Below are positions 27,765 to 50,613 of a DNA stretch of 64,000 nucleotides, in pieces; positions within the stretch are counted from its first letter, which is position 1, and each line of letters starts with the position of its first letter. A program made the position numbers and the translations under genes. This DNA is from Lachnospiraceae bacterium (lineage in GTDB: Bacteria; Bacillota; Clostridia; Lachnospirales; Lachnospiraceae). Location: positions 186,001 to 250,000 of the forward strand of contig JAFSRP010000018.1 of NCBI GenBank assembly GCA_017446045.1, written 5' to 3'. Below the pieces are notes generated by a model. The model saw only the letters and a list, made by a program, of their open reading frames with translations. It was not told the origin of the DNA and did not search any database.

Positions 27765-28479
27765 AGAGATTCCGGAAGGGGCAGCTTTCTGCCCGAACTG
27801 CGGGACACCAACGGGAGAGAGCGGAAGCAGGGATCCTTTTAAGGAGCATGTGCAGCAGGCGAAGGAAAACGCGTCTGCAGCTGCGGATGACCTTAAGGAA
27901 AAAGCTTCTGCCGCAGCCGGCGACTTTAAGGAAAAAGCTTCCGCGGCAGCGGATGAGTTTCAGAAAAAAGCCACGGAAGCCGTTAATCAGGCCGGCCAGT
28001 CGATCGATTCAGCTGTGGATGAAGTTACGAACGATCTGCGGGGCATCACGCCGGTCGGCGGCCCCTTAAAGGCGGACAGGAGCCTGATCGCGTATATCCT
28101 GCTGAGCATCATTACCTGCGGTATTTACGGGTATTACTTTATCTATACCGTCGCAAGGGACGTCAACACAGCCTGTGACGATGACGATGAGGAAACTCCC
28201 GGCCTCGGGATCTTCATCCTGCTTTCCTTTGTCACCTGCGGTTTCTACGGACTGTACTGGGAGTATAAGCTGGCCAACCGCCTGCAGAAGAATGCCCCCG
28301 CCTTCGATATTACCATTGAAGAGAACGGCACCACGATCCTTTTGTGGCGTCTTCTCGGCGCCCTGGTCTGCGGCATCGGCACCTTCATCGGTTCTTATCT
28401 GCTGATCCGGAACATCAACCGGATCTGTGAAGCGTACAACCGGAAGAAGTTCGGAAACGCGATCGTTTCCGCAAACTGA
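27742..28479 (+). CDS. Zinc-ribbon DUF4234 membrane protein
   Basis: A 245-residue protein starting with a zinc ribbon (CQYCGKEIPEGAAFCPNCG, two CxxC pairs). An Ala/Lys/Glu-rich helical stretch follows at about 35-90 containing 11-residue repeats of the type A-S-A-A-A-D-x-x-K-E-K. Then comes a DUF4234 domain with about three membrane helices (ITCGIYGYYFIYTVARDVN; TCGFYGLYWEYKLANRL). The family is widespread in Clostridia and its role is unknown. GGGAGGT lies 5 nt before the ATG, inside the DUF2752 gene. Confidence 0.8.
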   Translation: MFCQYCGKEIPEGAAFCPNCGTPTGESGSRDPFKEHVQQAKENASAAADDLKEKASAAAGDFKEKASAAADEFQKKATEAVNQAGQSIDSAVDEVTNDLRGITPVGGPLKADRSLIAYILLSIITCGIYGYYFIYTVARDVNTACDDDDEETPGLGIFILLSFVTCGFYGLYWEYKLANRLQKNAPAFDITIEENGTTILLWRLLGALVCGIGTFIGSYLLIRNINRICEAYNRKKFGNAIVSAN

Positions 28480-38611: not shown

Positions 38612-39724
38612 TCAGGTTTCGCGTAATTTGACAGAGCGGTAAGTACGACGTTTTGTCTCCTCTTTCTGCTGCACATAATATTTCGATGAAGTGGCAGGAG
38701 AGGAGTGCCCGAGTGCGTCCTGGATCTCCTTGAGCCCGACATTGTTGGATTCATCAGCGAGCAGATTCGTTGCAAAGGTCGATCGCAGTTTATGAACCGT
38801 AATATCATCGGTACCTGTTACAGCGGTCGTATATTTTTTAACCATGCGTTCGATGGAACGCGCGGTCATTCTCGTGTGATCACGAGAAATAAAGAGCGCA
38901 TTTTTGTTGTCATCATCAGGTTCATAACGCCCCGGATCATTGAAAAGATAATCCCGAAGAGCGTCCTCGACCTCGTTGCTCATGTATACACGGTCGGCTT
39001 TGTTGCCTTTTCGGATGATCCTGATCGATCCATCTTCAAAATCCACGTCAGAAATATTAATACCAACACATTCGGATACACGAATACCAGTGCCAAGGAT
39101 CAGAGTACAGATCGCAAGATCACGTTTTGACGTTTTTTCGTTCCATTTTTCCTGTCTGGTAGATGCTTTATTTGCTGACGCGCCGCGGGATCCTTCAATA
39201 TCATCGAGAAGCTGTGCGCTTTGATGCGGTTCGAGATATTTGATGGGTTTATCCTTTGATACTTTTAGTACCACTGCAGACACAGGGTCGTTTGTTATTA
39301 AATTCACAATGTTGTCTGTGGTCAGGTAATAGTGATAAAACTTTCTCAATACAGCAAGCTTATGGGCACGTGAATTTTTGGTGTTAGTCCTGACGGTGCC
39401 GTCAGCTGATTCATATTTTGAAAGATAGGTCCGCACATAATAACGAATGTCACTCATGGTCATGGATTCCAGACATTGAGCCGGCAGATCCCTGATCGGA
39501 ATATCAGCGTATTCCGGTTTATAATCATGCAGAAATTCAAAAAAGATCCCGAGATCCGTCGCGTAACTTAATCTGGTCGATACAGCGGATTCTACATCGT
39601 CAGCCATATACGCGAAAAAATCCGAAGCGAATCTGGGAAGTTCATCAAGTTTTTGAAAAAGCTTTTCCTCGAGCTTTTCATCGTATTGTCTGCGGTATGG
39701 GATATTTTTAATTATTTTTGCCAT
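38612..39724 (-). CDS. Tyrosine recombinase / integrase (XerC/D-like)
   Basis: A 370-residue site-specific recombinase. The N-terminal 150 residues are a SAM-like core-binding domain. The catalytic domain carries all residues: Arg215 (GTGIRVSE), Lys239 (RKGNK), His311 and Arg314 (VHKLRSTFATN), His340 (ALGHSSPATS) and a Tyr at 349 or 350 (SSKYYV). It should break and rejoin DNA at paired 11-13 bp half-sites. No phage or transposon genes are nearby, so it may be a chromosome-dimer or cassette recombinase. AAAGGAAA precedes the ATG. Its promoter and an adjoining double palindrome lie upstream at 39844-39907. Confidence 0.9.
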   Translation of the reverse strand: MAKIIKNIPYRRQYDEKLEEKLFQKLDELPRFASDFFAYMADDVESAVSTRLSYATDLGIFFEFLHDYKPEYADIPIRDLPAQCLESMTMSDIRYYVRTYLSKYESADGTVRTNTKNSRAHKLAVLRKFYHYYLTTDNIVNLITNDPVSAVVLKVSKDKPIKYLEPHQSAQLLDDIEGSRGASANKASTRQEKWNEKTSKRDLAICTLILGTGIRVSECVGINISDVDFEDGSIRIIRKGNKADRVYMSNEVEDALRDYLFNDPGRYEPDDDNKNALFISRDHTRMTARSIERMVKKYTTAVTGTDDITVHKLRSTFATNLLADESNNVGLKEIQDALGHSSPATSSKYYVQQKEETKRRTYRSVKLRET

Positions 39725-47561: not shown

Positions 47562-48731
47562 TCAGATCCTGATGACCTCAATTTCCATTTCTTTTGAACG
47601 GAACATGTAGGCTTTGCCGATATCCTGCTGGACCACAAGTACCTTCTTTGCGTATTTCCCGCCGAAGCGATCTGCGATGGTCTGCAGCTCATAGAGTGCC
47701 CTCAGCGTCTGCGTCGCGTTCAGATTGCCGCTCTTGCAGGAAATAAAGGTTGGGATGTTGCCCTCCAGCTTCAGAACGTCGATCTCATTCTGTACATCGA
47801 TACCGACCGGGCCCTGGATCACGCCATCCCAGTCAAGATGTACGCCGACCCGGCAGTCATCGCTGTTCTTCTTCTCAAGCTCATAAATATGGAGCTCCAG
47901 GATGCTCCCGCTGTCCCAGATGCAGTCTTTCAGGATCTCGTTTTTGAAGGAAAACTCATAGATATCGTCGTCATACTGCAGTCCGGTGATAATGCCGGCA
48001 TCTGCCAGGTCCTCCAGAATGACCTGAAGCCGGTGAAGGGAATTGACTCCGGAAGTAGACGCGTACAGCGCTTCAAGAACACCGACGGCCCTTTTGTGGA
48101 CCATCAGATGATCGTCCGGCACCATATTGTTACGGAGAAACTCAGAAAACGCGTTCCAGTGGGTATGGTGCCGCTCGGCGATCTCCCACAGCTTTCCGAG
48201 GTCTTCCGTGTTTTCTTCGGCTGCCTGTCCCTTCAGATCCTTCTGGAGCGTATAGTTGATGACCCCACCCTGCAGTCGTATATATTTGTCGAGGTCCAGC
48301 CGGAAACCGCTCTCCGGCGCAAGCTCCGACATCCTCTTTCCCGCTCCTGTTTCCAGTTCCGTCAGCTTGTTTGTCTCAATGTCATAAAAATGGACCGGCA
48401 GGCGGAATTCTCTTGCCAGCATACCGAAAGCGACGAGGATCACACTCTGACCACCGGTGATATCAAAGAACAGGTTGTTCTTCTGACCGAGTTCCAGCTC
48501 AATAGCTTTGCGCATCATATCCAGCGTGGAATCCAGCTTTCCGCGGGACAGGGTATGGAACACTACGCGCTGTACGCCGCAGTAGTCTTTGAGAAATGCT
48601 TCTGTTGATGCCTTCCGTCGTTCGACGATTTCGTGAAACCCGAAAAAGACCGCCTTATCCATGCGGTAATTCATACAGGTCACAACATTTTCAAGGGGTT
48701 CTTCCGAGAGAAACTCAAACTCTACATTCAT
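47562..48731 (-). CDS. CARF-domain nuclease of the DUF1887 (Card1/Can2-like) family
   Basis: A 389-residue protein. The N-terminal 140 residues match a CARF-type ligand domain (FLSEEPLENVV; NNLFFDITGGQSVILVAFGML, with DITGG at 90-94). A winged-helix-like middle follows at about 205-265. The C-terminal part is PD-(D/E)xK nuclease-like, with Glu279 (SILELHIY), NEID at 315-318 and SCKSGN with Lys333. Card1 and Can2 are cyclic-tetra-adenylate-activated nucleases of type III CRISPR immunity. No cas gene or array is in this window, so the activator here is unknown. It lies 12 nt after the degV gene and 57 nt before the S41 gene. Confidence 0.85.
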   Translation of the reverse strand: MNVEFEFLSEEPLENVVTCMNYRMDKAVFFGFHEIVERRKASTEAFLKDYCGVQRVVFHTLSRGKLDSTLDMMRKAIELELGQKNNLFFDITGGQSVILVAFGMLAREFRLPVHFYDIETNKLTELETGAGKRMSELAPESGFRLDLDKYIRLQGGVINYTLQKDLKGQAAEENTEDLGKLWEIAERHHTHWNAFSEFLRNNMVPDDHLMVHKRAVGVLEALYASTSGVNSLHRLQVILEDLADAGIITGLQYDDDIYEFSFKNEILKDCIWDSGSILELHIYELEKKNSDDCRVGVHLDWDGVIQGPVGIDVQNEIDVLKLEGNIPTFISCKSGNLNATQTLRALYELQTIADRFGGKYAKKVLVVQQDIGKAYMFRSKEMEIEVIRI

Positions 48732-48743
48732 AGTGTTTTGATG

Positions 48744-49613
48744 TCAGACCGGTTTGCAGGATACTCCAATGCCGAGCGCACCCGGCCCGCTGTGGCAGCA
48801 GACTCCGAGGGATAGATAATCACTCAGGATAGGAACACCGGGAAAAGCCTCCTGTACCTGCCGGATCCAGTTTTGATTTCCTTCAGGATCGGCGCTGGTA
48901 GCCGTCATCAGATGATACGCGCCCTTCTCGTAATGCTCCCGGAAACGCGTCTGCAGATCGTTTTTTATCATTTCGATCATCATCAGCCGTGCCCTCTGCA
49001 TACCATGGGCGTTGCGGTGCGGGACCAGCAGCCCGGTATCGAGCTTCAGGATCGGCTTGATCTGGAGGAGGGTACCGGCCATCGCGGTGAAGGAACTGAT
49101 CCTTCCGCCGCGCTTCAGATACTCAAGCGTATCCACAGCCAGGTAGATGATCTCCCGGTCACGGTACTCTTCCAGTTTTGCCCGGATCCTTGTCGCATCC
49201 CATCCCAATTCGATCATACGGAGCGCATCGAGGATGGTGCAGTGCATCGGTGTCGATACCCTGCCGTTATCTACAACAAATACACGGTCCCTGTATGGTT
49301 CCTCTCCCGCAAGGACCGCTGCGTTTGCGCAGGAACTGCTCAGTCCGCTGCTGATCGGCATGTAAAGGATCTGGTCATACTCTTCCAGCGCCCTGTTCCA
49401 GACGGACATGACTGTCTCAGGCGAGGGCTGGGATGTCGAAAGCGTGACACCCAAAGAAAGCATTTTCAAAAATGCTTCCCTGCTAATGTCGACATTCTCA
49501 TGGTAATCCCTGCCGTCTATGCAGAACGGCATATTCAGAAGAATGACGCCGAGGCGTTTCGCTTCTTCGGGGGTGATGCTGCAGTGGCTGTCCGCCACGA
49601 TTCCTATCTTCAT
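48744..49613 (-). CDS. DegV-family fatty-acid-binding protein
   Basis: A 289-residue protein of the DegV (FakB) fold, which holds a fatty acid for FakA-type kinases. Signatures seen are KIGIVADSHCSITPEEA, STSQPSPE near 60, PISSGLSSSCANAA near 86 and LKRGGRISS near 166. FakA is not in the window. It starts 7 nt after the PfkB stop and is followed after 12 nt by the CARF nuclease gene, so the three are very probably one transcript. Confidence 0.9.
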   Translation of the reverse strand: MKIGIVADSHCSITPEEAKRLGVILLNMPFCIDGRDYHENVDISREAFLKMLSLGVTLSTSQPSPETVMSVWNRALEEYDQILYMPISSGLSSSCANAAVLAGEEPYRDRVFVVDNGRVSTPMHCTILDALRMIELGWDATRIRAKLEEYRDREIIYLAVDTLEYLKRGGRISSFTAMAGTLLQIKPILKLDTGLLVPHRNAHGMQRARLMMIEMIKNDLQTRFREHYEKGAYHLMTATSADPEGNQNWIRQVQEAFPGVPILSDYLSLGVCCHSGPGALGIGVSCKPV

Positions 49614-49620
49614 GGGTTCA

Positions 49621-50613
49621 TTATATAGTATAACTTGATATATGTGAATCTGTTATTTCAATGTCAAATTCCGCCGGCATAAAGCGAGGACAGACATTTT
49701 CGTCCGTGACAATGACAGAAGCCGCCAGCCGTGTGCCGATGGCGCAGGCCTCCCCGAGGGTCTTTCCGTAGGTGAGTCCGATCGCCACGCCCGAAAAGAA
49801 TGCGTCGCCGCAGCCGGTCGTATCATTCACATCTACTTTCATCGGCGGACAGAAGCCGCAGCTGCCGCCTTCCGTGCCGGCAGGTATCTCTTCTGTGCTT
49901 CCTCCGGTCTCTGCGTAGACAGCGCCTTTGGCGCCCATGGTCACCACCATGCGGGGGATCTGTGCCTGGCGGATGCGCCGCAGGATCTTCTCCTTCAGTT
50001 CCTCCGGTTCCATGTGTTCATAGTCTTCCGAAAACAGGATCCCTGCTTCCTGTACGTTGCATACGATGCAGTCGATCCGTTTCAGCAGATCCCTGCGTTC
50101 CACGGCGATGCTCATATTGGAGACAGGTGCGTATACCTCCTTGCCATATTTTTCGGCAAGCGTGAGGACCCTTTTCAGGATCGGGGTCTCGATATCGAAC
50201 TCCACCGCGATGCTGTCGGCCCCCGCAAAGATCTCATCTCCTTTTTCATCCAGGATATTGCCGATCTCACCGAGATCCGGCCGCTTAGAAATGGATGCGA
50301 CCACATCCCCACTGTTGTCAAAGACAGCCAGCCAGGTCCCGAGACCGTCCTCCGTACGGCGTATATAGTCGGTGTTGCACTGGTGTTTCTGGAGCTTCTC
50401 GATGACGTCGGTACTGATTCCGCTCTGATCCACAACCGTTACCAGTGTGGGACGCAGTTCCACATTCGCAATATCCTCGGCGATATTGCGGCAGACGCCG
50501 CCATGGACCTGTACGACCCGGCCCGAATTGCGTCCCGCGGGGATATACTGGCTCAGGGGATACCCCTTGATGTCAACAAAGGTTGCTCCTATTACAACGA
50601 TGCCGGTCTTCAT
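49621..50613 (-). CDS. PfkB-family carbohydrate/nucleoside kinase
   Basis: A 330-residue ribokinase-fold kinase: N-terminal VVIGATFVDIKGYP, GGVCRNIAEDIANV, and the catalytic VNDTTGCGDAFFSG near residue 270 with the Asp base. The N-terminal pattern resembles pseudouridine and adenosine-type kinases of the family, but context gives no substrate. GGAGAGGGAC lies just before the ATG. It heads the minus-strand run towards degV and the CARF nuclease gene and is divergent from the split transketolase. Confidence 0.85.
   Translation of the reverse strand: MKTGIVVIGATFVDIKGYPLSQYIPAGRNSGRVVQVHGGVCRNIAEDIANVELRPTLVTVVDQSGISTDVIEKLQKHQCNTDYIRRTEDGLGTWLAVFDNSGDVVASISKRPDLGEIGNILDEKGDEIFAGADSIAVEFDIETPILKRVLTLAEKYGKEVYAPVSNMSIAVERRDLLKRIDCIVCNVQEAGILFSEDYEHMEPEELKEKILRRIRQAQIPRMVVTMGAKGAVYAETGGSTEEIPAGTEGGSCGFCPPMKVDVNDTTGCGDAFFSGVAIGLTYGKTLGEACAIGTRLAASVIVTDENVCPRFMPAEFDIEITDSHISSYTI

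Follow-up and report, generated by a model that had tools for sequence, protein, structure and literature searches.

An orphan CARF nuclease of Lachnospiraceae with an acidic predicted ligand pocket and an altered active site

The locus and its gene product

The gene under study is located on the minus strand of the 64 kb stretch of Lachnospiraceae DNA analysed here (the window), and the frame on the plus strand carries stop codons. A sequence-only reading, which gave no strand, had placed an orphan Card1/Can2-like CARF nuclease at this position, and the gene is confirmed there (Table 1). The sole Pfam match of the gene product was PF09002 (Card1_endonuc; 26.7 bits against a cut-off of 26.4, 4.5e-6), and its best match in PADLOC was CARF4--CARF_PDDEXK (E = 5e-28). 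When a profile of 17 homologues was compared by sequence with proteins of solved structure, matches were found to Can2 (7bdv, 3.8e-17), VC1899 from Vibrio cholerae (1xmx, 2.9e-12), the DUF1887 protein 8bao (6e-10), Card1 (6wxw, 8e-10) and Cdn1 (8z4i, 5e-6), and a 56-row profile had VC1899 as its best solved match. The window protein alone matched only VC1899 (E 0.06) and Can2 (E 0.26), both weakly. The profile alignments to Can2, VC1899 and Card1 extend over nearly the full length and include an N-terminal CARF domain and a C-terminal Card1-type nuclease domain, as in other DUF1887/CARF4 CARF-PD-(D/E)xK proteins. In Can2, the CARF domain comprises residues 3-151 (PMC7969007).

In the direction of transcription, the PfkB-family kinase gene is followed after 7 nt by the degV-like gene, which is separated by 12 nt from the nuclease gene, and a gene for an S41-type peptidase begins 48 nt further on, followed by a nitroreductase-like gene, a second PfkB kinase gene and an indigoidine-synthase-A-like gene. 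The coordinates therefore bear out both the 12 nt gap to degV and the place of the PfkB gene before it. A tyrosine recombinase gene (38612-39724, minus strand; PF00589, 1e-31) is found ~8 kb from the nuclease gene.

No CRISPR array was revealed when the window was scanned for direct repeats (seed 14, minimum 20 nt), as the sequence-only reading had also found for these 64 kb, and Rfam at gathering thresholds gave no match in the window. The sole repeats are three direct copies of 33 nt (27862-27960), 76-79% alike to the reference and with a length that is a multiple of three.

Table 1. Genes and predicted functional residues at the nuclease locus (coordinates are those of the window)
Feature	Coordinates	Strand	Basis
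Stand-alone CARF-PD-(D/E)xK nuclease gene	47562..48731	minus	One complete ORF, 389 aa
CARF (ligand-sensing) domain, ~residues 1-150, approximate boundary	48282..48731	minus	Profile aligned with Can2 (7bdv)
Acidic first pocket loop S9-E-E-P-L-E-N15 (Can2 S19 loop)	48687..48707	minus	Alignment
CARF motif D90-I-T-G-G94, then Q95-S96 where most type III comparison rows show T-K	48450..48464	minus	Alignments
E279, first acidic residue of predicted nuclease site	47895..47897	minus	Glu in 96/96 rows; aligns with Cdn1 E274
E316-I-D318 acid pair (Can2 E276/D278)	47778..47786	minus	Alignment
S331-C-K333, Ser replacing the Glu of ExK, predicted catalytic Lys kept	47733..47741	minus	Alignment
E348, proposed migrated carboxylate	47688..47690	minus	Glu in 94/96 rows
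degV-like gene, 12 nt upstream of the nuclease gene	48744..49613	minus	PF02645, 3e-60
PfkB-family kinase gene, 7 nt upstream of degV	49621..50613	minus	PF00294, 9e-29

Occurrence and genetic context of relatives

A homologue was present in 18 of 200 sampled genomes of the family Lachnospiraceae, and 15 of these 18 carriers have a completeness of 90% or more and a contamination of no more than 5%. In named genomes, a scan identified 241 stretches encoding relatives, and among the best 80 of the 241, which were kept, most are labelled Lachnospiraceae and many are from rumen or gut samples. Relatives were not found in the phage and plasmid collections searched, nor in viral contigs scanned by conserved patterns.

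The neighbours of the window gene were compared with those in 18 fetched stretches and in the 80 named loci. The neighbours vary, a functional link to pfkB-degV was not supported, and the idea of a conserved operon was rejected. A relative of the window degV was found in three of the 80 loci, which by our own rough estimate is near chance (L042, two genes and 0.9 kb away on the opposite strand; L086, three genes and 3.4 kb upstream on the same strand; L118, 7.5 kb away), and a relative of the window PfkB gene in none of the 80. In one sub-lineage, the nuclease gene lies near dnaB (Pfam-confirmed, in the fetched stretch of 14 of the 80 loci) and rplI (13 of the 80), together with valS and gdpP-like genes; the names rplI, valS and gdpP are presumptive and were read from the sequence.

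Direct neighbours were collected from 54 of the 80 loci, with each 75% identity cluster represented once, leaving out five fragment loci and frames that were shorter than 110 aa, longer than 1400 aa or cut by the end of the locus. Among these 88 neighbours each Pfam family occurred no more than three times, and the families listed (25 of 94) are mostly ordinary, including DnaB, GGDEF, enolase, aconitase and Clp; just one of the 88 is a PfkB-family gene. Housekeeping surroundings are therefore general to the group, and the particular pfkB-degV operon is not. PADLOC at 1e-10 matched 24 families, each in one member, of which 19 were E1-E2 models and one was CARF_ADA. A defence island is not supported by these matches, which were all single and are raw counts. 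In an empty-site test, G117, a genome of the same genus, had no degV match closer than 36% identity, and so no orthologous site was found.

Predicted nuclease active site

The residues that the sequence-only reading had taken for an intact nuclease site, E279, E316, D318 and K333, are all at the positions given, but the Glu of the ExK motif is Ser331. Cdn1, a ribonuclease of the same DUF1887 family from a type III-B system, has cA4 and cA6 as its activators; its metal site is formed by E274, D310, E323 and K325, and K345 makes a salt bridge with the phosphodiester in a docked model (PMC12825302). These five residues align with E279, D318, S331, K333 and E348 of the window protein, so that E279, D318 and K333 of the canonical E...D...ExK metal site of solved members are present and the Glu of ExK is replaced. 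The E348 position is a Lys in Can2, Card1, VC1899, 8bao and Cdn1. All five thus combine an E-C-K motif with a helix Lys (E/K), E323 with K345 in Cdn1 and ECK with YKL in VC1899, whereas the window protein has S331 and E348 (S/E). The protein therefore resembles Can2 and Card1, the type III ancillary nucleases of the DUF1887 family, in layout, in length and in the equivalents of E279, E316/D318 and K333, but differs from them at two sites, the ExK Glu being replaced by Ser and the helix Lys by Glu.

The S/E pair is the usual one among relatives, being present in 104 of 107 rows (100 distinct), with S/K in two sister rows and E/K in one. A 97-row alignment was built from the 80 named loci, 16 sequences of the family survey and the window protein, with seven rows repeating a gene already present from the other collection and five incomplete. 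In the 96 rows that reach them, E279, D300, W301, N315, E316, D318, S331, C332 and K333 are invariant, as is W192 in 97, though this invariance is partly by construction as the 80 named loci were recruited by patterns over NEIDV or PTFISCK. The 17-row set, which came from a whole-protein search and is therefore the fairer test of conservation, has the same active-site residues, with E348 in 16 of the 17. Alignment A1, from which the broken copy in G041 and the second copy in G089 (L037) were left out, covers 17 of the 18 carriers.

The paired S331/E348 replacement looks like a migrated carboxylate, as the second carboxylate is shifted to the following helix in other PD-(D/E)xK enzymes (PMC4652773, PMC1189080), and E348 may supply the metal ligand lost at S331. 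The two sister S/K rows do not fit such a migration. The CCGG-family restriction enzymes NgoMIV, Cfr10I and BsaWI, which are also PD-(D/E)xK enzymes with a second acid after the Lys, have the spacing K-X12-13-E (PMC4652773), and K-X10-18-E is found in relatives of the window protein, a likeness of layout only.

The S/E swap was considered as a mark of orphan members and rejected, as it also occurs in the type III-linked members L131, L133, L134, L137, L138, L140, L143 and L146. Since Ser is frequent at the position of the ExK Glu across the wider family, the Glu was not treated as family-defining. Many nucleases of the family, including type III-linked ones, thus differ at the active site from the solved members, and mutants and models based on Card1 may not transfer directly.

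Predicted ligand pocket

The CARF motif DITGG was confirmed at D90-G94. SthCan2 contacts cA4 via S19, T42, K99 and Y118 (PMC7969007), and the equivalents in a sequence alignment are S9, F32, S96 and F115; the Ser is kept, the Tyr is conservatively replaced by Phe, and the Thr and Lys are lost. A Lys at the place of Can2 K99 was found in none of 88 clade rows (81 distinct) compared with seven of nine type III comparison rows; two of the nine, L133 and L142, have Cas10 at 18 kb and 31 kb, beyond 10 kb. Position 96 is never Lys or Arg in the 88 clade rows, and an acid is present at 95 or 96 in 78 of them. The E11 position is Glu or Asp in 85 of the 88 and the E14 position in 87. Of the nine type III rows, by contrast, eight carry Q, R or N at position 11 and seven carry P at position 14. 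Over eight pocket positions, the mean summed charge is -3.2 in the clade and +0.2 in the type III rows. One of the nine, L143, is clade-like in having Glu at position 96. The 88 clade rows leave out the five divergent family members L036-L040, none of which has Lys or Arg at 96; L057, L078, L092 and L094, which are cut by contig ends, and L071, which has a stop, were left out of both the pocket counts and the tree described below.

On these alignments the ligand is probably not cA4. The description as Card1/Can2-like stands for the domain layout, but not for the active-site arrangement, which is unlike that of the five aligned solved relatives, nor for the pocket, which is unlike that of Can2. 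VC1899 is likewise an orphan with acidic pocket residues, though it has S-C-G where the window protein has T-G-G; its acidic and hydrophobic pocket was judged unfit for cA4, and it has weak cA4-independent RNase activity and is possibly degenerate (PMC7969007). Conservation in the CARF loops of the relatives, at N15 (93 of 95) and at G93 (all 95 rows), almost equals that of the nuclease residues, suggesting that a ligand still matters.

Search for a type III CRISPR or other signalling partner

The host assembly (2.26 Mb in 63 contigs, 79% complete) was searched at E <= 0.001, the array search covering the window, and no match to Cas10-palm, SMODS, RAMP, mCpol or Cas1 was found. The orphan status that had been proposed, with no type III partner found, is thus supported at the level of a 79% complete assembly. 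In the 200 family genomes, Cas10-palm gave some match in 81, a match over the cut-off of the family in 49 and a strong match (E <= 3e-15, a threshold set by us) in 23, and none of these 23 genomes carries the nuclease gene. Weaker matches to the Cas10 profile were present in eight carriers, and in five of these eight (G049, G050, G089, G160 and G180) the match exceeded the curated cut-off. All are on contigs other than that of the gene, with the exception of a sub-cut-off match in G067, which lies 131 kb from the gene. Taken together, these matches are tentatively read as other cyclases. RAMP matches were absent from all 18 carriers, while the same-genus non-carrier G117 has three and served as a positive control. 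mCpol was not over its cut-off in any of the 18, with one weak match in G089. SMODS, the sole CD-NTase family used as a probe, was found in one of the 18 (G040), on a contig other than that of the nuclease gene, so that no CBASS CD-NTase partner was evident in the carriers with this probe. Cas1 was found in three of the 18.

Among the 80 named loci, 50 genomes were picked by hand for a Cas10 search, passing over fragments and most near-duplicates; 26 had some match, 10 a match over the cut-off, and four have ambiguous matches between 5e-13 and 2e-9. The one strong match was in Eubacterium ruminantium FB3002, which carries the gene copy L114. As L065 is apparently genome G089 again, the carriers examined number 67. 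A strong Cas10 match is present in one of the 67 compared with 23 of 182 non-carriers (Fisher p = 0.004, a post hoc test that joins unlike samples), and the 18 family carriers alone, with none, give p = 0.10. In a like-for-like control of 19 other PF09002 genomes in the phylum, four of which have PF09002 matches below the PF09002 cut-off, 10 had a Cas10-profile match over the cut-off at a distance of 10 kb or less from the gene, whereas no such match was found in any of the 18 carriers of the family, some of which have short contigs (post hoc Fisher test, p = 0.0003). The genomic association with Cas10 that marks Can2 and Card1 as ancillary effectors was thus not found, the exceptions among relatives being L143, in an operon, and L114, in the same genome. 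Orphanhood is common to the kin of this gene and is not peculiar to the window copy.

Selection and relationships

Whole-gene dN/dS values were 0.025-0.078 in nine of 10 estimable close pairs and 0.197 in the tenth; the 15 pairs were picked by hand, five were saturated, and five of the 10 estimable pairs have dS >1, near saturation. The CARF and nuclease parts gave values of similar size where both could be computed. Two broken copies were identified, one in G041, which is in two pieces with ~residues 212-305 missing, and L071, which has an in-frame stop. Although a few copies are broken, the low values indicate that the gene is not a general relic.

In a quick tree of 100 rows, from which the phylum-survey rows L136, L141, L144, L145 and L147 were left out, L143 was placed inside the Lachnospiraceae-centred clade beside L027 (SH-aLRT 92, on a long branch). 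However, a tree in which the other 81 clade rows were held together was not rejected (p-AU 0.33), and L143 may equally lie beside the clade; its status as a proven later recruit was therefore not upheld. L143 is in a type III-B operon (L149:3083-13386, genome G566) with genes for Cmr1, Cas10, a weak Cmr3, RAMPs and Cas6, and a CorA-like gene (PADLOC 2e-79) begins 15 nt after the CARF nuclease gene, indicating that a CARF of this type may be able to serve Cas10. The clade member L064:9836-11860 shares its reading frame with a methyltransferase domain (PF13649, 8e-14), either a true fusion or an assembly error.

Proposed role

On balance, and with moderate confidence, we regard the gene product as a chromosomal, CRISPR-independent, ligand-gated nuclease, and it probably answers to a signal other than the CRISPR alarm. 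Going by homology with Can2 and Cdn1, two subunits would form a dimer via their CARF domains, and binding of a small nucleotide-like ligand across this CARF dimer would juxtapose the two PD-(D/E)xK domains, which would then cleave nucleic acid. The ligand would not be a cyclic oligoadenylate, and the output would be a response to stress or infection. The sequence-only reading had allowed for cyclic oligoadenylates made elsewhere in the genome or for another nucleotide signal; the second part can stand, but the first is weakened, as strong Cas10, RAMP and over-cut-off mCpol matches are absent from the host assembly and the 17 other carriers and the cA4-contact Lys is lost. The patchy presence of the gene (18 of 200), as with defence genes, counts against the CRISPR-independent chromosomal reading.

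A more specific proposal, which we put forward tentatively and as less likely than not, is that gut Lachnospiraceae run a CRISPR-independent second-messenger pathway in which the receptor would be the acidic-pocket CARF nuclease. Its signal would be no cyclic oligoadenylate; it would be a nucleotide that includes a positively charged moiety, perhaps one derived from SAM such as SAM-AMP, and the enzyme making it would be neither Cas10 nor mCpol nor a cyclase of the SMODS type. In Bacteroides fragilis, SAM-AMP is the signal to which CorA responds (PMC10600005), and the hints for SAM-AMP here are the CorA-like gene by L143, the methyltransferase domain of L064 and the acidic pocket positions.

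The alternative that survives best, though we consider it rather improbable, is a housekeeping nuclease for repair or RNA turnover that is free of ligand or controlled by a metabolite, its CARF fold no longer signalling infection. The mostly housekeeping neighbours, the presence of dnaB in the fetched stretches of one sub-lineage, the low dN/dS and the absence of relatives from the mobile-element collections searched are all consistent with such a role, but the patchy distribution in the family, the strong conservation of N15 and G93, and the fact that the characterised kin are defence effectors argue against it. It is quite unlikely that the protein is an effector acting in trans for a type III CRISPR system missed in the incomplete assembly and using cyclic oligoadenylates. 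L143, near or inside the clade, and E. ruminantium FB3002 do combine such a nuclease with Cas10, but RAMP matches are lacking even though 15 of the 18 carriers are nearly complete, strong Cas10 matches are rarer among carriers, within the limits of the comparison given above, and the cA4-contact Lys is lost. Least probable, and very much so, is that the gene is a decayed remnant severed from CRISPR, a fate proposed for VC1899, given that catalytic residues are kept, that dN/dS is low in nine of the 10 estimable pairs and that one collection has 241 stretches encoding relatives, despite the broken copies and the VC1899 precedent of an orphan with an unsuitable pocket and weak RNase activity.

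CARF domains have been treated mainly as readers of CRISPR signals, and orphan DUF1887 proteins as such are already known, VC1899 being one. A large clade under purifying selection, with no CRISPR partner detected and an altered pocket, points towards an as yet unnamed signal, and the existence of cultured carriers makes this question testable. Among the carriers are Oribacterium sinus DSM 17245 (L046), Eubacterium ruminantium ATCC 17233 (L116) and Butyrivibrio sp. CB08 (L061). Neither the clade nor the S/E active site was the subject of any paper found in a literature search, which is weak evidence of novelty as subscription papers were mostly beyond the reach of the search.

Other members of the family

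A second, smaller group of relatives is found in other families (L129, L130, L132, L135 and L139), in genomes without a strong Cas10 match. Its members have the S/E active site and all five lack the Lys at the K99 place (one has Arg), and the pocket motif is different and non-acidic. In genome G089, a related CARF nuclease (L037:12591-14258, minus strand) shares a reading frame with a C-terminal domain of the cytidine-deaminase type (PF00383, 4e-25).
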